DNA of 64,000 bases from Phycisphaeraceae bacterium. Lineage in GTDB: Bacteria; Planctomycetota; Phycisphaerae; Phycisphaerales; UBA1924. Position numbers and translations under genes: made by a program. Shown here one piece after another: positions 47,551 through 58,730 of the stretch. The stretch spans positions 1,054,001 to 1,118,000 of the forward strand of contig JAHBXB010000001.1 of NCBI GenBank assembly GCA_019636655.1. Direction: 5' to 3'. Every line of letters begins with the position of its first letter. Position 1 is the stretch's first letter. The notes below the pieces were generated by a model. The model made no database searches. It was not told the origin of the DNA and was given only the letters and a program-made list of their open reading frames with translations.

Positions 47551-48966
47551 ATGTCGCAGCCCGCCGCACCGTCGCATCAGGCCGCCGCGCCGTCCGATGC
47601 CCTTGTCTTCTTCGGCGCCACCGGCGACCTCGCGTTCAAGCAGATCATCCCCTCGCTGCAGTCGCTGATCCGGCGCGGCAAGCTCGACATACCGATCATC
47701 GGTGTCGCCAAGGCGGGATGGAACCTCGAGCAGATGCAGGCCCGGGTCAAGGAGAGCCTGCAGGCGCACTCCAAGATTGATCCCAAGGCGCTCGACAAGT
47801 TCCTGTCGCTGCTCTGCTATATCGACGGCGACTACCGCGACGTCGAAACGTTCAAGTCGCTCAAGCAGAAGCTCGGCGGCGCGAAGCGTCCGCTGCACTA
47901 CCTGGCGATCCCGCCGAGTTTTTTCGGCACCGTTGTGGAGGGACTCGCCAAGGCCGGGTGCGCCGCCGACGCCCGAGTCGTCGTGGAGAAGCCCTTCGGG
48001 CGCGACCTGGCCTCGGCCCGGGCGCTGAACGCGACGCTGCAATCGGTGTTCCCCGAGGAGAGCATCTTCCGGATCGACCACTACCTGGGCAAGGAACCCT
48101 CGCAGAACCTGCTGTACTTCCGCTTCGCCAACCCGATCCTCGAACCGGTGTGGAACCGGCTCCACATCGCCAGCATCCAGATCACGATGGCCGAGTCGTT
48201 CGGGGTCAAGGGGCGGGGCAAGTTCTACGAGGAGGCCGGCGCCATCCGCGACGTCATTCAGAACCACATGCTGCAGGTGGCGGCGCTGCTCACGATGGAC
48301 GCCCCCGTTCGGCCCGACCCCGCCGCGATCCGCGGCGAGCGCACCCGACTGTTTGAGGGCGTCCGCACGATGTCCGCCTCCGACGTCGTGCGGGGGCAGT
48401 TCCGCGGCTACCGCAGCGAAGACGGGGTAGCAACGGATTCCACTGTGGAGACGTACGCCGCGGTGCGGCTGTGGATCGACACGCTCCGATGGAGCGGCGT
48501 GCCGATCCTGATCCGAGCCGGGAAATGCCTGCCGGAGACCTCCACCGAGGTCATGGTGTTCTTCAAGCGGCCGCCGCCCACGGCGTTCGGTGATGGTGGG
48601 AAACTCGGGGCCAACAACTTCCGCTTCCGGCTGAGCCCCGACGTGGTCATCGGCATGGGCGCCCGGGCGAAGAAGCCCGGCGAAGGAATGGACGGCGAGG
48701 CGATCGAGCTGATCGCCAAGGACGAAACGCCCGACGAAATGCCGCCCTACGAGCGACTGCTCGGTGACGCCGCGAACGGGGATTCGGAGCTGTTCGCGAG
48801 CCAGAGCAACGTCGAGGAAGCGTGGCGGATCGTTGACCCGATCCTCGGCGATGCCTCGCCGGTCCATCAGTATGATCCGGGCACCTGGGGTCCGGCGGAG
48901 GCCTCGCGGCTCACCGAGGGGTTCGAGGCCTGGCACGCCCCGGCCGCGCACGGAGCCAACGCGTGA
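47551..48966 (+). CDS. zwf: Glucose-6-phosphate 1-dehydrogenase
   Basis: First enzyme of the oxidative pentose phosphate path, 471 residues. Motifs are VFFGATGDLAFKQIIPSL (the usual GASGDL(A/T)xRKL is varied), YLAIPPSFFGTVVEGL, VVVEKPFGRDL, and the active site RIDHYLGKEPSQNLLYFRFAN. TYAAVRLWIDTLRWSGVPILIRAGKCL follows. GGAGG precedes the ATG. The stop overlaps the next start as GTGA. No 6-phosphogluconolactonase or opcA gene lies in this cluster. Confidence 0.97.
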   Translation: MSQPAAPSHQAAAPSDALVFFGATGDLAFKQIIPSLQSLIRRGKLDIPIIGVAKAGWNLEQMQARVKESLQAHSKIDPKALDKFLSLLCYIDGDYRDVETFKSLKQKLGGAKRPLHYLAIPPSFFGTVVEGLAKAGCAADARVVVEKPFGRDLASARALNATLQSVFPEESIFRIDHYLGKEPSQNLLYFRFANPILEPVWNRLHIASIQITMAESFGVKGRGKFYEEAGAIRDVIQNHMLQVAALLTMDAPVRPDPAAIRGERTRLFEGVRTMSASDVVRGQFRGYRSEDGVATDSTVETYAAVRLWIDTLRWSGVPILIRAGKCLPETSTEVMVFFKRPPPTAFGDGGKLGANNFRFRLSPDVVIGMGARAKKPGEGMDGEAIELIAKDETPDEMPPYERLLGDAANGDSELFASQSNVEEAWRIVDPILGDASPVHQYDPGTWGPAEASRLTEGFEAWHAPAAHGANA

Positions 48967-49640
48967 GCACACCGAGCGAGACGGTCTTCCTTCTCGACGT
49001 CGACAACACGCTGCTCGACAACGACATGGTGCAGCGCGACCTGCGGGACCACCTGGAGCGACAGTTCGGTGCCCGGCGTCGGGAGGAGTACTGGGCGGCC
49101 CTGGAGGATCTGCGGTCCGAACTGGGGTATGTCGACTACCTCGGGGCCCTGCAGCGGTACCGCCTGCGGCACATGGACGAGCCGCGCCTGCTGGATATCT
49201 CGGAATACCTGCTCGGCTACGCGTTCGCCTCCCGCCTGTACCCAAGGGTGCTGGAACTGATCGGTGCGCTCCGGACCATCGGACCGACCGTGATCCTGTC
49301 CGATGGAGACGTGGTCTTCCAGCCCCACAAGGTCCGCCGCAGCGGGCTCTGGGAGGCCGTCGACGGCAGCGTTCTCATCTATATACACAAGGAAACGCAG
49401 CTGCAGGATGTCGAGCGGCGGCACCCCGCCATGCGGTACATCATGATCGACGACAAGCTCCGGATCCTGACCGCCATGAAACACGTCTGGGGGGACCGCC
49501 TGACCACCGTCTGGCCGCGGCAGGGGCACTATGCGAACGACCCGGCGCACACCAAGGGCCTGCCCGCCCCGGATATCACAGTCGATACGATCGGCGACCT
49601 GCTTCACACAAGCCTTGTACAGCCCGTGGCGGGCCGGTAG
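48963..49640 (+). CDS. HAD-superfamily hydrolase
   Basis: Probable phosphatase of 225 residues. Motif I LDVDNTLLDND gives Asp12 and Asp14, motif II is VILSDGD, motif III is a Lys in the QPHKVRRSG region, and motif IV is MIDDKLRIL. A helical cap lies between motifs I and II. Substrate unknown. It starts at GTG inside the zwf stop codon, so it is probably co-translated with G6PDH. That linkage suggests a sugar-phosphate or phosphogluconate-related task, or removal of a toxic side product; this is inference from position only. Confidence 0.82.
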   Translation: MSTPSETVFLLDVDNTLLDNDMVQRDLRDHLERQFGARRREEYWAALEDLRSELGYVDYLGALQRYRLRHMDEPRLLDISEYLLGYAFASRLYPRVLELIGALRTIGPTVILSDGDVVFQPHKVRRSGLWEAVDGSVLIYIHKETQLQDVERRHPAMRYIMIDDKLRILTAMKHVWGDRLTTVWPRQGHYANDPAHTKGLPAPDITVDTIGDLLHTSLVQPVAGR

Positions 49641-49690
49641 GCCGCCACGCCGCTTGAGCCCCGCACCCGGCCCCACCGGCCCGCCTTCAC

Positions 49691-49696
49691 TACACT
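49691..49696 (+). promoter_or_regulatory. Probable internal -10 (TACACT) before tal
   Basis: TACACT lies 43 bases before the tal start in the 99-base gap after the HAD gene, leaving a leader with a strong Shine-Dalgarno (AAGGAG). tal and pgi may thus also be transcribed separately. Confidence 0.35.
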
Positions 49697-49739
49697 GATC
49701 GAGAGTCGCACGCGGATAGACCCACGGAAGGAGACGCCG

Positions 49740-50828
49740 ATGACCACCCCGACCCGCCAACTCCACGATGCCGGCCAGAGCCTGTGGATCGACAACATCA
49801 CCCGGGCCATGCTCGCCAGCGGCACGCTCCGGAAGTACATCGATACGCTCTCGGTCACCGGCCTGACGTCGAACCCGACGATCTTCGACCAGGCGATCAG
49901 CAAGAGCAGCGACTACGACACCGCCATCCGCACCAAGTTGAAGCAGGGCCTCTCGGGCGAGACGCTCTTCTTCGATCTCGCAATCGAGGACCTCACGCAG
50001 GCGGCCGACCTGTTCCGCCCGGTCCACGACCGGACGGACGGGGTCGATGGCTTCGTCTCGCTCGAGGTCTCCCCGCTGCTGGCGTACGACACCGCCAAGA
50101 CCATCGACGCGGCGAAGAGCCTCCACGCCAAGGCCGCACGCAAGAACCTGTTCATCAAGATCCCGGGGACGAAAGAGGGCCTCCCGGCCATCGAAGAGGC
50201 GATCTTCTCGGGCATCCCGATCAACGTCACGCTGCTGTTCTCCAGCGAGCACTACACGGCCGCCGCGGAGGCGTACATGCGGGGCGTCGAGCGTCGCATC
50301 GCTAAGGGCCTGAACCCCGATATCGCGTCGGTCGCATCGGTGTTCATCAGCCGGTGGGACAAGCCCGCCTCGGCGAAACTCCCCGGCGACCTCGCGGAGG
50401 GGATGGGCGTCGGCGTCGGCAAGCGCGTGTACAAGGCATACCGCGACCTGCTCAACTCCGACCGCTGGCACCGCCTCGCGAACAAGGGAGCCCGCCCCCA
50501 GCGGCTGCTGTGGGCCAGCACGGGGACGAAGGACCCGAAGTTCTCCGACACGCTCTACGTCGAGTCCCTGGTCTCCCCATTCACCGTCAACACCATGCCG
50601 GAGCAGACGCTGCTCGCCTTCGCTGATCACGGCAAGGTCGGGGCGCCGCTGGCCGCCGACGGCGGCAACTCCGAGGCCATCCTCGCGAAGTTCGCCAAGG
50701 CGGGCGTCGACTATGCCGCGCTGGCGGCGACCCTGCAGAAGGAAGGCGCCGAGTCGTTCACCAAGTCCTGGAACGACCTGATGGCGGTCCTGGCGAGCAA
50801 GAGCGAGAAGATCCTCCAGACGGCCTGA
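49740..50828 (+). CDS. tal: Transaldolase
   Basis: Schiff-base enzyme moving three-carbon units in the non-oxidative pentose phosphate path, 362 residues, as in the long TalB-type-2 (actinobacterial/cyanobacterial) forms. Motifs are SLWIDNITRAMLASG, VTGLTSNPTIFDQAI, FVSLEVSPLLAYD, KNLFIKIPGTKEGLPAIEEAIFSGIPINVTLLFS (with the catalytic Lys region) and ASVFISRWD. AAGGAG precedes the ATG at 49740. It is followed 45 bases later by pgi. Confidence 0.95.
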   Translation: MTTPTRQLHDAGQSLWIDNITRAMLASGTLRKYIDTLSVTGLTSNPTIFDQAISKSSDYDTAIRTKLKQGLSGETLFFDLAIEDLTQAADLFRPVHDRTDGVDGFVSLEVSPLLAYDTAKTIDAAKSLHAKAARKNLFIKIPGTKEGLPAIEEAIFSGIPINVTLLFSSEHYTAAAEAYMRGVERRIAKGLNPDIASVASVFISRWDKPASAKLPGDLAEGMGVGVGKRVYKAYRDLLNSDRWHRLANKGARPQRLLWASTGTKDPKFSDTLYVESLVSPFTVNTMPEQTLLAFADHGKVGAPLAADGGNSEAILAKFAKAGVDYAALAATLQKEGAESFTKSWNDLMAVLASKSEKILQTA

Positions 50829-50873
50829 CCACCCGATCACCACCAACCCCGCGCGAGTCGAGGGAGACTGCTG

Positions 50874-52517
<1,644 letters not shown>

Positions 52518-52555
52518 TCCCCCCTCCCTCCGCTTCCCCCGAGCGGCTCCCCGCC

Positions 52556-52561
52556 TACACT
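52556..52561 (+). promoter_or_regulatory. Probable -10 (TACACT) for rpsP
   Basis: TACACT about 110 bases before rpsP predicts a leader of roughly 100 bases. An ATG directly downstream (52571) opens an unconserved reading frame and is not taken as a gene. Confidence 0.3.
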
Positions 52562-52670
52562 CCGCGTCCCATGTCACCCCTCCGGCCCCGTTGTGGGGTC
52601 GGCTTTGGTCTGGTGGCCGTCGCCCGGTACGGCAATCTCACCGGTGCAGCCTTCCTCGGAGATCCGCTCA

Positions 52671-53006
52671 ATGGTTCGTATCCGCATGCAGCGTCTTGGC
52701 CGCCGCCGCCGCCCGTTCTTCCGAATCAGCGCCATCGATATCGGCACGAAGCGCGACGGCAAGGTGCTCGAGCAACTCGGCTGGTACGACCCGCTCGCGG
52801 CCGAGGGCAAGCAGCTGCACCTGGAGGACGACCGCGTGAAGGACTGGCTCGCACGCGGCGCCCAGCCCAGCGATTCGCTGAAGGACGTCTTCGCGAAGCG
52901 CAACCTCATCAACGCCGACGAGTGGAACGCCGAGCGTGCCGCCCGCGTGGCGCGCAAGCAGAAGCTCGCCGCGGCCAAGCCCGCGCCGGCCGAGAAGAAG
53001 GCCTGA
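52671..53006 (+). CDS. rpsP: 30S ribosomal protein S16
   Basis: Small-subunit ribosomal protein, 111 residues. VRIRMQRLGRRRRPFFRISAIDI, LEQLGWYDPLA and the C-terminal DRVKDWLARGAQPSDSLKDVF are diagnostic for bS16. A basic Ala/Lys-rich tail extends it by about 25 residues. A terminator follows at once, so it is monocistronic. rimM and trmD, its usual neighbours, do not follow. Confidence 0.97.
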   Translation: MVRIRMQRLGRRRRPFFRISAIDIGTKRDGKVLEQLGWYDPLAAEGKQLHLEDDRVKDWLARGAQPSDSLKDVFAKRNLINADEWNAERAARVARKQKLAAAKPAPAEKKA

Positions 53007-53036
53007 GTCGATTCCGCAGTGTACTGAATCACCCGA

Positions 53037-53064
53037 CCGCGCCGGCTCACCCGGCGCGGTTTTT
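53037..53064 (+). terminator. Rho-independent terminator after rpsP
   Basis: Perfect 9-bp stem CCGCGCCGG / CCGGCGCGG with a five-base loop, then TTTTT. Confidence 0.88.
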
Positions 53065-53076
53065 CGTTCCGTGCCA

Positions 53077-54300
53077 CTACGGCTTCCGAAGCAGCGAGTG
53101 ACGCAGGATCGCCATCGTCGGCATCGGCGGGTACTTCACGCGCATCCGGTAGCCCTGGAACTCATCGAGCGAGTACCCCAGGCTCTTCGTGGCCGCCTCC
53201 GCCATTTCCCGATAGTGCGGCAGTTCTGTCGTCGTCGTGTCGGGCGGCGACGAACCGAGGTCGGTGACTTCCACCGGCACGGGCAGGAGCCCGGCGTTCA
53301 GGCCGTGCTCAGGATACCGGGGCCCCCCGGGCAGTTGGCTGTAGAAGTGCGCCGTCGGGTTCATCGCAAAGTCGAGGCTGCGATGGACCAGCAGATCGTG
53401 CACGAGCGACTCGACCGGCGTCACGATCGTAACGACGTGCTCACCGAACTCGCCCGGATGAGACTCGTACTTCGACGCCACCGCCTCGTGCCGCCACCCG
53501 AACACCACGGTCGCCGCGGCGGTGTTGCCGACCGGCCCCTCCTCCAGAACAAACCGTACGGTGCCGTCACGCTCCCGCTCCTGACGCAGTTGGGGCAGCG
53601 GGTCTGAGCAGTACTGAGCCAGAAGCGGCGACTCATCCAGGCCGACCGACGGATCAATAGGGCCGAACGATTGTTGCTCCGGAGCAATCGAGCCCCATCG
53701 CCTCAGCGTCGCCGCCGACCAGGGCACATCCGGCCGTAGCCGCCGAAAGTCCGCGAGGCCGCAGATCGTCGCCATGCTGACCGCATCGCCGGGCCCGGCG
53801 CTCGGCGCCATCACGTGGAGGCTGACCTGGACGCGGGCCTGAACACCCCAGATCGCCGAGTTGGCCTGGAACCCCGACTTGCGAAAGGCCTCGATGCGCT
53901 TCGCCGTGGCGCGGCTGTTTCGGACCCCGAGCATCATCTCCAGCGTTTCGCGGTCGCCCGCATGAGCCTCGACCATCCGGTCGAACCCCGCCAGTGCATC
54001 CTGCACCGCGATCACCGATTCGTCCGGCGCTCCGGCATTACGGAGCGATTCCAGCACGATCTTCACGCCGCCCCGCCCCGGCAGCATCGCGATGGCGCCG
54101 CACGGATCCTCTTCCGTGACAATCCTGCAGAGTTTCCAAGCAAGCGTCTTGTCCAGCCCGAGTTGACGCGAAACCCCCGGCGGCTTCGCCGCGTCGCACC
54201 CGATCGCGGCCAGCGATTCGGCCAACGCGCGGCGAACCTGCTGGGCCACACTCCGGGCCTCGATCACAAATGCACCACCACCGCGGGTTGCGACGCTCAT
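53077..54300 (-). CDS. Hypothetical protein, possible regulator
   Basis: Protein of 407 residues without signal peptide or membrane segments. The N-terminal 100 residues are helical (ARSVAQQVRRALAESLAAIG, RQLGLDKTLAWKLCRIV, VIAVQDALAGFDRMVEAHAGDRETLEMML) and might contain a helix-turn-helix, a guess from the SRQLGLDKTLAWKL pattern. The remaining 280 residues look alpha/beta and resemble nothing I know. Palindromes and an AT-rich stretch lie upstream in the divergent intergenic region, which would suit an autoregulated DNA-binding protein. It is inserted, with the large secreted protein, between rpsP and trmD. Confidence 0.65.
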   Translation of the reverse strand: MSVATRGGGAFVIEARSVAQQVRRALAESLAAIGCDAAKPPGVSRQLGLDKTLAWKLCRIVTEEDPCGAIAMLPGRGGVKIVLESLRNAGAPDESVIAVQDALAGFDRMVEAHAGDRETLEMMLGVRNSRATAKRIEAFRKSGFQANSAIWGVQARVQVSLHVMAPSAGPGDAVSMATICGLADFRRLRPDVPWSAATLRRWGSIAPEQQSFGPIDPSVGLDESPLLAQYCSDPLPQLRQERERDGTVRFVLEEGPVGNTAAATVVFGWRHEAVASKYESHPGEFGEHVVTIVTPVESLVHDLLVHRSLDFAMNPTAHFYSQLPGGPRYPEHGLNAGLLPVPVEVTDLGSSPPDTTTTELPHYREMAEAATKSLGYSLDEFQGYRMRVKYPPMPTMAILRHSLLRKP

Positions 54301-54378
54301 GAGATGATCCCGCCCAACCCCATCCAGAATCCGCACAAGCCGTGGGTGGGTATCGGGTTGAACCAGAGTATACCCAAA

Positions 54379-54421
54379 AAACTGACAGTTTGCACGTTAC
54401 CAAAAATATCTCTAGAGATAT
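54379..54421. promoter_or_regulatory. Two perfect palindromes in an AT-rich divergent intergenic region
   Basis: AAACTGACAGTTT at 54379-54391 and ATATCTCTAGAGATAT at 54406-54421 are perfect dyads whose centres are about 28-29 bases apart. The stretch is strikingly AT-rich for this genome. They lie between the hypothetical gene (start 54300, minus) and the large secreted-protein gene (plus) and look like operators. Confidence 0.55.
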
Positions 54422-54423
54422 CC

Positions 54424-54450
54424 TTGCAGGAATTGCCGACATCGTATAAC
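54424..54450 (+). promoter_or_regulatory. Candidate promoter TTGCAG-N15-TATAAC
   Basis: -35-like TTGCAG at 54424-54429 and -10-like TATAAC at 54445-54450; spacing of 15 is slightly short. It abuts the 16-bp palindrome, so a bound protein would overlap the -35. Confidence 0.45.
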
Positions 54451-54464
54451 ATCGTGATCAGCCG

Positions 54465-54506
54465 CCCGAGTTCTCGGTGTCTACGTACATAACACGAACT
54501 CTCGGG
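54465..54506 (+). promoter_or_regulatory. Leader hairpin at the 5' end of the secreted-protein mRNA
   Basis: CCC-GAGTTC (54465-54473) pairs with GAACTC-tc-GGG (54496-54506), extended by GTGT (54477-54480) with ACAC (54492-54495); small bulges, loop of 11. It would lie within ten bases of the predicted transcript start and could protect the mRNA 5' end or regulate it. Confidence 0.4.
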
Positions 54507-54557
54507 CCCATCGGTTTGTTTCTGACCCCGATTGTCAACCTCTTGGAGAAAACCGCC

Positions 54558-57311
54558 GTGGCCCGACTGATCACCTCCATCTCGACAACCGCGATCCTCG
54601 CCGCCGCGAGTGCCGCTGTGGCCCAGCCGCAGATCACTTCGCTCGGCACGGGCACGCCCGCAAGCGTGAGCAACCCCGTTTCGGGGACCAACTACATCAC
54701 CGGCACCTCGTCCTCCTCAATCGCCCGGTGGACACTGAGCGGCGGCACGTTGACCCTCGACAACCTCGGCGGCACGGGCAGCGGCGTCACCTCCGCCGAC
54801 GGCTCTCTTGTTGCCGGCGCGGTGCTCAACGTAAGCCCTCAGGCTTCCGGCAACGCCGCCACTGGCGTCTCCCCCCCATTCAGCACCACGCCGACGCTCG
54901 TTCCCACGCTGATCGCCGCGACCGAATCCGCCGGCGCCCGCTGGGACTCCACCTCGATGACCTGGCAGCGGCTTGGAAGCCTGCCGATTGATCCGAGCCT
55001 GATGGTCTACGGCTCCGGCTCGAGCGGCAGCTCAAGCGGCAACTTCCTCATTACGACCGCCATGTCCCCCAACGGCCGGTTCATCGTCGGCCGGGGCTAC
55101 ATCTCGACGTACAACAGCGCCGCCGGCACCACTATCGCCGTGTCGTCTTCCCAGTGGCGGCCCTTCATCTGGGACGCCCAGGCCAACGGCGGCAACGGTG
55201 GTCTGACCGTCCTCCCCACACCCTTCCGCACGTCCTCCAACACGTACCGCCGCCGCACCGGCGTCGCCTACGCCGTCAGCAACGACGGGCTCGTCATTGC
55301 GGGGACACAGGAGCACAATGTCTCTGCAGCCGCCGCGCCCGACCCGGACGGCGCTCGGCCGGCCGTCTGGCGCTGGAACCCCGGCACCAGTTCCTACGAC
55401 ATGACCTATCTCCCCAACGGGGTCAACAGCAGCGGCTTCCCCTACACCTACAGCATCTCCTCGGGCATGCTGATGAACTCGGACGGCACGGTCGTCGTCT
55501 GCCGCGCCGTCGCCGACCTCACGGGCAACAGCTATGTCGCCAAGTGGACATGGAACAGTGGCACCTCGTCGTGGAGCGCCCCGGTCGTCATTGGTGCCGA
55601 CCTCACAACCCCGGCATCTTGGCTTCCCCTGTCCGTCACCAGTTGTGGCATCCCGCCGACGCTGACACCGACGGGAATGTCCGATGACGGCAACACGGTG
55701 GTCGGCATGGCCGTCTACAGCACCTGCGGCAGCTTTATGTCCGGTGGCTTTATCTGGACCCAGTCCAGCGGCCTGGTCGTCGACTGGTACGACCATCTCG
55801 TCGCCCAGAACGTCCCCGGCATCACCGCTAACTATGGCCCGATCGGCGACAACGGCGACCCGGCCCGCGGCCTGCCCAAGCTCGGCTTCCCGGCCGCCAT
55901 CTCACCCGACGGCAGCACGATCGTCGGCTTCCAGGGCGGCAACCAGCTCATCCCCGGTGCGGCGCCGTGGGCCCTCCGCAGCAGCGGCGCTCCCGGTTGC
56001 GTCGCGCCCGCCGTGGTCTCCAACCCCAATGCCCTCACCACCTTCTCCCGCTGCTCCTCGTTCGGCGTCATCCTGAACGCCGCCGCCAGCGGCTCGTCCC
56101 CCGCTTTCGCATGGTTCAAGGACAACGTCGAACTCGCCGACGGTCCCACCGCCAGCGGCTCGGTGCTCTCCGGGGTTAACACCGGCCAGCTCCGAATCAC
56201 CGGCCCGAACCTCGGAGACGCCGGCAACTACCACTGCGTGGTGTCCAACGCGTGCGGCAGCGTCCAGACGACCACCGCCGTGGTCCAGCCCGACCCCTCC
56301 GTTACGACACCTCCGAACGACACCTGCGCCAACGCAACCAGCGTCGGCGAAGGAACCTTCGCCTTCAACCCCTGCGGGGCCTGGGTGGACGAGGCGGGCG
56401 CGATCTGCAACCTCAGCATCGGTCCGGGCACCTCGGATGTTTGGTACAGCTACACCCCTACCTTCACCGGTGAGGCCCGCTTCCAGACCTGCGGCGCCAA
56501 CTACAACACCGTCATCGGCATCTGGAGCGAGTGCGGCGGCGTCGAACTGGCCTGCAACGACGATGTCGGCTCCGGCGTCAGCGGGTGCTCCTCGAACCGC
56601 AGCCGCATCTCCCGCTACAACGTCACCGCAGGTGTTCCGGTGCTGATCCGCGTCGCGGCGTCCACCTCCCCGGGCACCACCGGCAGCCTCCAGATCCTGC
56701 AGGCTCCGCCGATCCCGGCCAACGACGACTGCTCCAACCCCACCCCGGTCACGGTCGCCCCCGGCAACCTCCCCGTCACCACTACCTTCGATTGTGCGGA
56801 GGCCTCCGATGACTGGCTCGCCAGTTGCGTGACCGCCTCCTCCTACCGCGACCTGTGGTTCACCTTCAACCCGCCGCAGAATGGCACCGTCCGTCTCGCC
56901 ACCTGCCCGGGCACCTCGTTCGACACCGTCCTGAGCGTCCACTCGGCGTGCCTCACTGGCGACTACGCCTGCAACGACAACGCGGGCATCTCGGGCTGCT
57001 CCACGCAGAGCATCATCGATAGCCTCGCCGTCACGCGCAACACGCCGCTGCTCATCCGCATCGCCCAGAAGTCGCTGAGCACCACCACCGCCGGCACGCT
57101 CACCCTCAAGTTCACCCCCGCCTGTCCGGCCGACTACGACAACGACGGCGTCTTCACGCCGACCGACATCGCCTCCTTCATCAACACGTGGTTCAACAGC
57201 ATCTCCGCCGGCGGCCTCGCGGGCGACTACGACGGAAACGGCGTGGTGGATCCGACCGACATCGCCACCTTCATCAACGCCTGGCTGACCGGCGTTCAGT
57301 CCGGCTGCTAG
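54558..57311 (+). CDS. Large secreted multidomain protein with dockerin-like C-terminal tail
   Basis: Exported protein of 917 residues. The signal peptide MARLITSISTTAILAAASAAVA is cleaved before QPQ. Residues about 25-490 hold repeated beta segments of the extracellular HAF-repeat type (SADGSLVAGAV, MSPNGRFIVGRGY, VSNDGLVIAGTQ, MSDDGNTVVGMAVY, ISPDGSTIVGFQ). An Ig-like domain follows (about 500-595), then two related Cys-rich modules (NDTCANATSVGEG... and NDDCSNPTPVTVA...). The tail CPADYDNDGVFTPTDI ... GDYDGNGVVDPTDI ... SGC is the same double Ca-loop, Cys-bounded tail as in the kelch protein. The GTG at 54558 has GGAG nine bases upstream; a GTG at 54477 would sit in the leader hairpin. Confidence 0.82.
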   Translation: MARLITSISTTAILAAASAAVAQPQITSLGTGTPASVSNPVSGTNYITGTSSSSIARWTLSGGTLTLDNLGGTGSGVTSADGSLVAGAVLNVSPQASGNAATGVSPPFSTTPTLVPTLIAATESAGARWDSTSMTWQRLGSLPIDPSLMVYGSGSSGSSSGNFLITTAMSPNGRFIVGRGYISTYNSAAGTTIAVSSSQWRPFIWDAQANGGNGGLTVLPTPFRTSSNTYRRRTGVAYAVSNDGLVIAGTQEHNVSAAAAPDPDGARPAVWRWNPGTSSYDMTYLPNGVNSSGFPYTYSISSGMLMNSDGTVVVCRAVADLTGNSYVAKWTWNSGTSSWSAPVVIGADLTTPASWLPLSVTSCGIPPTLTPTGMSDDGNTVVGMAVYSTCGSFMSGGFIWTQSSGLVVDWYDHLVAQNVPGITANYGPIGDNGDPARGLPKLGFPAAISPDGSTIVGFQGGNQLIPGAAPWALRSSGAPGCVAPAVVSNPNALTTFSRCSSFGVILNAAASGSSPAFAWFKDNVELADGPTASGSVLSGVNTGQLRITGPNLGDAGNYHCVVSNACGSVQTTTAVVQPDPSVTTPPNDTCANATSVGEGTFAFNPCGAWVDEAGAICNLSIGPGTSDVWYSYTPTFTGEARFQTCGANYNTVIGIWSECGGVELACNDDVGSGVSGCSSNRSRISRYNVTAGVPVLIRVAASTSPGTTGSLQILQAPPIPANDDCSNPTPVTVAPGNLPVTTTFDCAEASDDWLASCVTASSYRDLWFTFNPPQNGTVRLATCPGTSFDTVLSVHSACLTGDYACNDNAGISGCSTQSIIDSLAVTRNTPLLIRIAQKSLSTTTAGTLTLKFTPACPADYDNDGVFTPTDIASFINTWFNSISAGGLAGDYDGNGVVDPTDIATFINAWLTGVQSGC

Positions 57312-57377
57312 TTCCGTGACCTCCCCCGGGGACCGCAGACCCGGAACCTGTTGACCGCGGAGCCGGTCAAAGCCAAG

Positions 57378-57414
57378 GCCGCACACGCCACGGAGCGTGT
57401 GCGGCTATTTTTTT
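57378..57414 (+). terminator. Rho-independent terminator after the secreted-protein gene
   Basis: Perfect 10-bp stem GCCGCACACG / CGTGTGCGGC with an eight-base loop, then TATTTTTTT. Confidence 0.9.
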
Positions 57415-57513
57415 CCCGGTCCGATTCCCGCATGGCACGCGGCGTCCGCACGCCCGGCACAATCCCCGCTTTCCTACCATCTCCCCGAGAGCCGCCCGCC
57501 AGCCGGAGCCGTC

Positions 57514-58254
57514 GTGCCCCCACTTCGCGTCGACATCCTCACCACGTTCCCCGAGATGTTCGGCTCCCAGCCCGGCGGGGCGCTCGCCTCCAGCATCCCC
57601 GCGCGGGCCCGGGCCGCCGGCCTCGTGGAATGGCACGCCACGAACATCCGTGACTTCGCCGGCAACAAGCACCAGAAGACCGACGACCGCCCCTTCGGCG
57701 GCGGACCGGGCATGGTCATGATGTGCCAGCCGCTGTGGGACGCCGTGCTCGCCGTCGAATCCGCCGATCCCCGCCCAGCGACCCGGATACTCCTCACGCC
57801 ACAGGGCCGCCCGCTCACCCAATCGATCGTCGAGGACCTCGCCGCACGCCCGAGGCTCCTCCTCATCGCCGGCCACTACGAGGGCGTCGACGAGCGGGTC
57901 ATCGCCCGCCTTGCCCCCATGGAACTCTCCCTGGGCGACTACGTCCTCTCCGGCGGGGAGCTCGCCGCGATCGTCCTGCTCGATGCCATCATCCGCCTGC
58001 TCCCCGGTGCCCTGGGGCACGAGGAGTCCGCGGCGGAGGATTCCTTCTCCGATCTCCCCGCCACCCCCAAGTCGGGGTTCCCGGGAGGCCGCCTGCTGGA
58101 CTGTGCACACTTCACCAAGCCACGGGAGTGGATGGGGATGCCCGTCCCCGATGTCCTGCTCTCGGGGGACCACGGGGCCATCGCCCGCTGGCGGCTCGAG
58201 CAGCGTCTGGCCAGGACCCGCGAACGCCGGCCGGACCTTCTCCCGCCCACATAG
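57514..58254 (+). CDS. trmD: tRNA (guanine-N1)-methyltransferase
   Basis: SPOUT methyltransferase making m1G37 in tRNA, 246 residues. Signatures are RVDILTTFPEMF, DDRPFGGGPGMVMMCQPLWDAV, LLIAGHYEGVDERVIARL, LSLGDYVLSGGELAAIVLLDAIIRLLPG and the C-terminal FTKPREWMGMPVPDVLLSGDHGAIARWR. The start is probably GTG at 57514 with GGAG six bases upstream; no ATG fits the conserved N-terminus. rimM, normally upstream, is absent. rplS follows after 83 bases. Confidence 0.96.
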   Translation: MPPLRVDILTTFPEMFGSQPGGALASSIPARARAAGLVEWHATNIRDFAGNKHQKTDDRPFGGGPGMVMMCQPLWDAVLAVESADPRPATRILLTPQGRPLTQSIVEDLAARPRLLLIAGHYEGVDERVIARLAPMELSLGDYVLSGGELAAIVLLDAIIRLLPGALGHEESAAEDSFSDLPATPKSGFPGGRLLDCAHFTKPREWMGMPVPDVLLSGDHGAIARWRLEQRLARTRERRPDLLPPT

Positions 58255-58337
58255 AAGCCCGCCCAGGCCCCGCCTATGGTTTGGGCCCTTCCGGGCTCCC
58301 AAATCCCGGATCGGCGGTCACTTCGGAGTTCAACGCC

Positions 58338-58730
58338 ATGGGCCTTCAGAGCATCATCGAGAACGTCAACAAGTCCGTCATCCGCACGGATATCCCGCGC
58401 ATCGACATCGGCGACACGGTCAACGTGCACTGCCGCATCATCGAGGGCCAGAAGGAGCGCATCCAGGTCTTCCAGGGTGTGGTCCTCTCCCGCGCCGGCC
58501 GCGGCGTGACCGAGATGATCACGGTCCGCCGGATCGTTGACAACATGGGCGTCGAGCGCATCTTCCCCATCAACTCGCCCCGCATCGCCAAGTACGAGGT
58601 CATCCGCCGGGCCGACGCTCGCCGCTCCAAGCTCTACTTCCTCCGCGACCGCGCCGGCAAGTCCCGCCGCCTCCGCGACCGCCGCCGCGGCATGAAGCAC
58701 GTGGCCGGCGAGGGCGCCCCGAAGGCCTGA
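58338..58730 (+). CDS. rplS: 50S ribosomal protein L19
   Basis: Large-subunit ribosomal protein at the subunit interface, 130 residues. IPRIDIGDTVNVHCRIIEGQKERIQVFQGVVLSR, TVRRIVDNMGVERIFPINSPRIAKYEVIRR and KLYFLRDRAGKSRRLRDRR are diagnostic for bL19. A short extra tail follows. It pairs with trmD as in most bacteria and is followed by a terminator. Confidence 0.97.
   Translation: MGLQSIIENVNKSVIRTDIPRIDIGDTVNVHCRIIEGQKERIQVFQGVVLSRAGRGVTEMITVRRIVDNMGVERIFPINSPRIAKYEVIRRADARRSKLYFLRDRAGKSRRLRDRRRGMKHVAGEGAPKA

Follow-up and report, generated by a model that had tools for sequence, protein, structure and literature searches.

The window, i.e. the whole stretch of 64,000 nucleotides that was analysed, contains a gene for a putative regulator on the minus strand (53077-54300) and a gene for a predicted secreted protein, starting from GTG 54558, on the plus strand. 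The two genes are divergent, in agreement with an earlier note on this DNA. The GTG start of the latter was picked by eye on the basis of an upstream GGAG and a signal-peptide-like N-terminus. The intergenic region is the most AT-rich part of the window, a distinct composition that had also been pointed out previously: the lowest 150-bp GC content, 44%, occurs at 54351, compared to 54% for the next lowest and a window mean of 68%. Both dyads described in the earlier note were found in place and are listed below with the other features of the locus; offsets are given from the centre of the 16-bp dyad, the candidate operator.

53077-54300, minus strand: regulator gene, ATG at 54300; 407 aa with a predicted N-terminal helix-turn-helix (HTH) and a C-terminal beta-rich domain
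54115-54183, minus strand: HTH codons, residues 40-62 (helices 40-47 and 51-62 in the AlphaFold2 model); residues 50 and 51 covary with the operator
54148-54153, minus strand: codons of D50 and K51, where the predicted recognition helix begins; proposed from covariation to contact bases
54367-54372, minus strand: predicted -10 TATACT of the regulator gene, offset 41
54379-54391, no strand: 13-bp dyad AAACTGACAGTTT, inside the spacer of the proposed regulator promoter; probably no operator
54390-54395, minus strand: possible -35 of the regulator gene, GTGCAA, with a 17-bp spacer to TATACT, as read from the sequence
54406-54421, no strand: 16-bp dyad ATATCTCTAGAGATAT, a perfect even palindrome and candidate operator
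54424-54429, plus strand: predicted -35 of the secreted-protein gene, TTGCAG, separated from the operator by 2 bp
54445-54450, plus strand: alternative -10 TATAAC, offset 31, 15-bp spacer
54447-54452, plus strand: predicted -10 TAACAT of the secreted-protein gene, offset 33, 17-bp spacer
54558-57311, plus strand: partner gene, GTG start; predicted secreted protein of 917 aa with Ig-like, galactose-binding-like and dockerin domains (Pfam)

The pair is flanked by the gene for ribosomal protein S16 (52596) on one side and by trmD (57397), followed by an L19-like frame (assigned by eye), on the other, and seemingly interrupts the rpsP-trmD-rplS order (window 52596-58730). A 1236-aa frame at 48867-52577 on the minus strand runs antisense to glucose-6-phosphate isomerase and the gene preceding it, and is probably spurious in this high-GC DNA.

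The 16-bp dyad is the only even perfect palindrome of at least 16 bp in the window. Taken alone this is little proof of function, because shuffled whole windows contained on average 2.6 such palindromes, which makes the dyad unremarkable window-wide; in shuffles of the intergenic region itself it was matched with P = 0.0035. Odd palindromes with 6-bp arms numbered 36 in the window, the 13-bp dyad included, compared to 33.7 in shuffles, and shuffling within the intergenic region gave P = 0.06 for this dyad. On account of this chance frequency, and of its presence in only 1 of 97 upstream regions of the regulator family described below, that of the window itself, the 13-bp dyad was rejected as a second operator. 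A leader hairpin that had been claimed for the same region did not hold up: its stability did not exceed that of shuffles (z -0.78; 47 of 200 fold equally well), no Rfam match was obtained for 54200-54800 at E up to 1, and by-eye comparison of the window with 10 relatives revealed no apparent common leader structure. A leader hairpin or riboswitch was rejected as unsupported on these grounds.

No match to the 407-aa regulator was found in Pfam and NCBIfam scans. Among 30 family members scanned against Pfam (E up to 0.1) there was no HTH model, HTH_3 included, and no receiver or sigma-54 interaction domain; the sole matches were ABATE (one member, E 0.0031) and DUF2400 (one member, E 0.035). 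The AlphaFold2 model of the regulator (mean pLDDT 91.4) comprises N-terminal helices that include the HTH (40-47 and 51-62) and a beta-rich domain from residue 153; the N-terminal domain modelled alone had a mean pLDDT of 90.2. Foldseek placed XRE-type proteins, e.g. C.Esp1396I, among the top rows for the predicted N-terminal domain at E 1.2 or more, and in VIA-align (Z 4.3 to 6.2) XRE-type proteins were intermixed with unrelated helical proteins. This weak fold match is a lead towards an XRE-type domain and not a membership. A PDB sequence search returned three weak matches (E 0.52 to 0.91) with no regulator among them. For the modelled C-terminal domain the best fold match was 3kd4 (Z 11.3, rmsd 3.1, 170 aligned), followed by oligosaccharyltransferase subunits (Z 9.7-10.7), 4g2a (9.0) and M1 aminopeptidase-type domains (Z 8.2-8.9); the likeness to 3kd4, the oligosaccharyltransferase subunits and the M1 aminopeptidases is taken as one of fold only, with no function or catalysis claimed.

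Relatives of the regulator were found in 41 of the 61 genomes searched, the genome of the window included, with seven family matches in that genome and up to 11 elsewhere. In a sample of the phylum, 24 out of 294 genomes contained relatives at E up to 1e-10, with a maximum of six candidates scored per genome. Named records held relatives at 45 loci, and 40 of these are titled Phycisphaerae or other planctomycetes. A distant relative (L116, 23% identity) resides in a Candidatus Sabulitectum record, apparently outside the planctomycetes. No description of the family was found among the matches listed in a literature search that covered mostly non-subscription journals, and the regulator belongs to an apparently undescribed family of planctomycete HTH regulators.

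Phylogenetic footprinting was based on 110 distinct family genes, 97 of which were kept as being less than 60% identical with usable upstream DNA: L109 and L110 were left out (fragment, poor alignment), and the 60% identity redundancy cut reduced the remaining 108 to 97. One member (L042) escaped the first query and was found using additional queries. The 97 upstream regions contained 132 perfect 6+6 dyads (spacer 0-6) compared to 38.2 in shuffles (maximum 57), and the single dyads TTTCTnnnnAGAAA, TTCTCnnGAGAA and GTTTCnGAAAC each recurred in 8 of the 97 regions, where about 0.03 are expected. Expectation-maximisation motif search from six seeds reached the palindrome AATTTCTCTAGAGAAATT, common to about half of the family upstream regions, from two of them (one unrelated) and with the highest likelihood of the six; the remaining four ended in other motifs of lower likelihood. 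With a blind model obtained from the unrelated seed on 81 training regions, excluding the window and its relatives of at least 40% identity, the top site in the region of the window was GATATCTCTAGAGATATT, i.e. the dyad. It scored 18.3 bits, and none of 2000 shuffles scored as high, the best reaching 18.0.

In five-fold cross-validation, sites above 12 bits were observed in 45 of 97 held-out regions; the corresponding rates were 1.2% for shuffles and 2.6% for 194 AT-rich control segments. New members were fetched later, and after exclusion of the 8 out of 38 loci that were more than 60% identical to earlier ones, 12 of the remaining 30 carried a site above 10 bits, compared to 2.9% of shuffles. 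The motif is thus carried clearly by about half of the family. A site of posterior >0.9 was absent from 29 of the 97 members, and some members show neither a AATTTCTCTAGAGAAATT-type site nor that of a subgroup whose helix begins with HRK, in which TGTTTCnGAAACA is found exactly in 6 of 11 members (L026, L028, L033, L051, L064 and L068). The neighbours of these six show no PEP-CTERM or dockerin tail, and these members may serve other targets. The earlier note had named conservation between relatives as the point on which its proposal would stand or fall; the 16-bp dyad was not refuted by this comparison, and the 13-bp dyad was not conserved.

Covariation between the protein and its site was calculated from 68 confident sites over 401 protein columns and nine operator positions. 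Residues 50 and 51 form the start of the recognition helix predicted by AlphaFold2. At operator position 3, K51 ranked first of the 401 columns (z 8.0, next 5.0), and at position 5 it came second (9.7) to L26 (10.5). D50 ranked first at position 6 (TTTC[T/C]; z 8.3), in a near tie with A15 (8.0) and S195 (7.5), and neither residue was first at the other six positions. The letter at position 6 was T in 64 of 72 half-sites of D50 proteins and C in 27 of 42 half-sites of N50 proteins. Covariation of this kind may be inflated by relatedness, and shared ancestry was partly controlled for by comparing 21 disjoint D/N pairs matched on similarity outside the HTH: the N member had more C in 14 pairs and fewer in 2, with 5 ties (one-sided p 0.002). 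The new members provided only 5 D and 2 N sites, too few to judge the rule.

The site has few copies in the genome of the window. ATATCTCTAGAGATAT with up to 3 mismatches was found at one place, and so was the 10-bp core TCTCTAGAGA. As the core letters read backwards also occur once, about one copy is implied by chance, and the single core copy therefore means that there are no further copies and nothing more. The family consensus with up to 3 mismatches matched four places including the 16-bp dyad. The three extra sites, each with 3 mismatches, were considered as a wider regulon and were taken as chance by their surroundings: L117 is within a long predicted frame, and the predicted start closest to L119 is about 600 bp away. 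L118 is less clear: its site (L118:3001-3016) ends 2 bp before the earliest possible start codon of a predicted gene whose 844-aa product has a signal-like N-terminus. For the closest paralogue, the operator had no second exact copy and matched two places at 3 mismatches; the HRK-type site occurred once, at its own gene.

The position of the dyad relative to the predicted promoters was evaluated across the family. On the partner side, a -10-like element started 30-33 bp from the operator centre for 25 of 58 divergent partners (shuffle mean 1.5, maximum 6) and 41-45 bp from it in 12 (shuffle mean 1.9, maximum 6); no excess was seen at 52-56 (2 of 58, shuffle mean 1.9), and the phasing is incomplete in this respect. 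The regulator side peaked at 41-45 (25 of 68; shuffle mean 2.6, maximum 7), with 16 of 68 at 52-56 (mean 3.0) and 9 of 68 at 30-33 (mean 2.2). The off-phase bins 35-40 and 46-51 each held 1 of 58 for the partner and 3 of 68 for the regulator. The steps between preferred offsets correspond to one helical turn. Of 33 partner promoters with the -10 at 30-33, 18 had a -35-like hexamer (score >3, 16- to 18-bp spacer), compared to 5.8% of control positions. In the 12 new members above 10 bits, counted without a shuffle control, the partner-side -10 was found at 30-33 in eight, at 41-45 in one and at 46-51 in one.

The geometry of the window fits that of the family on both sides, with TTGCAG-17-TAACAT at offset 33 and TATACT at offset 41. 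The earlier note had proposed a TTGCAG/TATAAC promoter overlapping the 16-bp dyad. The TTGCAG is present and lies 2 bp outside the dyad without overlapping it; the letters TATAAC are present as well, and the -10 was probably placed 2 bp off. We prefer TAACAT because of its 17-bp spacer, as offsets 33 and 31 are both in the family mode of 30-33. A generic promoter scan of 54200-54700 returned no sites; TTGCAG has 3 of 6 consensus letters, below the scan threshold.

The dockerin of the partner scored 24.8 bits with Pfam Dockerin_1, above the cut-off of 22.9, and 25.1 bits with NCBIfam dockerin_GC, below the cut-off of 29. Homologues of the partner are divergently placed at 9 other loci (E < 1e-30). 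More generally, the upstream neighbour was divergent in 86 of 105 family loci compared to 68 of 174 other genes at those loci. This census covered members with at least 600 bases upstream before the redundancy cut, L110 included; a neighbour was obtained for 105 of 110 and for neither L061 nor L116, and a second gene-calling pass again resulted in 86 of 105, with few loci differing (L045 was divergent in the first pass alone). Tails were classed by regular expressions, which miss some dockerin-like tails. Out of 65 complete divergent neighbours, 31 had PEP-CTERM-like and 11 dockerin-like tails (42 together), compared to 12 and 13, respectively, out of 221 other complete frames. When ten partners were compared with NCBIfam, PEP-CTERM models matched four, dockerin_GC two and neither the other four, with one match (TIGR02595) over its cut-off. 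In the genome of the window, six of the seven family genes are paired with a divergently oriented gene whose product has a PEP-CTERM or dockerin tail, as judged by eye and, for the window's own, by Pfam; NCBIfam gave weak PEP-CTERM or dockerin matches for three of the five other tailed partners and none for two. The genome also encodes two exosortases, enzymes thought to process PEP-CTERM proteins.

Control of the intergenic region by the product of the 53077-54300 gene had been suggested in the earlier note. The recurrence of the site in relatives, its position, its covariation with the helix and its few genome copies were established by computation. For the 16-bp dyad, site recurrence, helix covariation and promoter spacing argue strongly for this control, which probably does not extend to the 13-bp dyad. 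Judging from these comparisons of sequence, the 16-bp dyad is very probably the operator of the adjacent protein, whichever the sign of regulation. A dimer of the regulator would bind the two half-sites via the helix starting at residues 50/51, and the single bound site would serve two divergent sigma-70-type promoters. The operator would adjoin the -35 of the secreted dockerin-protein gene, the predicted start being some 43 to 46 bp downstream of the operator centre, and its distance to the putative -10 of the regulator gene would exceed that to the partner's -10 by about one helical turn. Contact with RNA polymerase would activate the secreted-protein gene and likewise the regulator's own gene, resulting in positive feedback, and the C-terminal domain may sense a signal. 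Given the operator and the adjacent protein, we lean towards activation, because an operator just upstream of the -35 and the helical phasing resemble class II activators.

Repression through the same operator and protein would involve blocking of the polymerase at the secreted-protein -35 and perhaps of the regulator's own gene too. This is the less probable sign but one to be reckoned with, as the operator adjoins the -35, -35-like hexamers are found in those 18 of 33 phased partner promoters, and autorepression by divergent regulators is common. The two-sided helical phasing with nearly empty off-phase bins is, however, what would be expected from polymerase contact, and the site on the regulator side is mostly one or two turns further upstream. 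It is improbable that another, perhaps global, regulator binds the dyad and that the neighbouring gene is incidental: the site type accompanies the family gene across genomes and varies with residue 50. Further, the core TCTCTAGAGA is found here only whereas a global site would recur, a modest argument as about one chance copy is expected. Binding by the neighbour is for its part a prediction, and one of the three further 3-mismatch consensus sites is just upstream of the 844-aa gene. Chance formation of palindromes in an AT-rich promoter region would account for the 13-bp dyad, which occurs at chance frequency; for the 16-bp dyad it is the most improbable of these explanations despite the 2.6 palindromes of similar length per shuffled window, since this dyad was recovered blind from relatives with a score that no shuffle equalled (best 18.0 vs 18.3 bits).

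A dedicated local regulator that switches on the secreted-protein gene and its own is the most likely reading, activation being read from the geometry; members of the family are often located back-to-back with a gene for a secreted surface protein. A bolder and doubtful extension would be that the family forms sets of mutually insulated switches of one regulator and one surface protein, in which each paralogue would recognise a private operator through residues 50/51, and its large C-terminal domain would sense the state or export of the PEP-CTERM or dockerin protein paired with it. To our knowledge, the control of the many PEP-CTERM and dockerin proteins that planctomycetes export is poorly understood. 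The analysis adds a regulator family unmatched in Pfam and NCBIfam, together with a predicted operator, a recognition rule based on two residues and a geometry of the promoters, and it provides a means of predicting the surface-protein genes that are under dedicated control.

In lambda cI at PRM and other class II activators, a palindromic operator is located just upstream of the -35 with its centre near -42. The family resembles these in operator position and in the phasing of the -10 (25 and 12 of 58 on the partner side), and differs in that starts are predicted here and the sign would follow from geometry; the likeness to lambda cI is one of geometry alone and implies no sequence relationship to the regulator. 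XRE/lambda-repressor-like domains such as that of C.Esp1396I are among the top Foldseek rows for the N-terminal domain, and differ by E >1 and by the absence of a Pfam HTH_3 match.

The available parts of four papers (PMC1569441, PMC9850573, PMC6461901 and PMC8249747) contain no description of the regulator family. Dockerin modules in planctomycetes are discussed in the accessible portion of PMC6461901. In Proteobacteria, PEP-CTERM genes are under sigma-54/PrsR control and planctomycetes are listed among the groups bearing PEP-CTERM, according to the sections seen of PMC1569441; dependence of one PEP-CTERM gene on RpoN is described in those of PMC9850573. As far as these sections go, the PrsK/PrsR system is alike in that exported proteins with sorting signals are placed under transcriptional control via a shared upstream motif. 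It differs in being a two-component, sigma-54 system of Proteobacteria, whereas here a planctomycete HTH protein lacking these Pfam domains is found, together with a divergent neighbour and sigma-70-like elements. Single-target regulators have been defined for E. coli transcription factors, where regulator and target, one each, are mostly adjacent (PMC8249747, in the part available). The family pairs are similar in this respect, the neighbour, which would be the target, being adjacent and divergent in the 86 of 105 loci vs 68 of 174 for other genes. In contrast to the E. coli factors described in that part, one paralogous family here gives rise to several pairs per genome; the likeness is one of arrangement.
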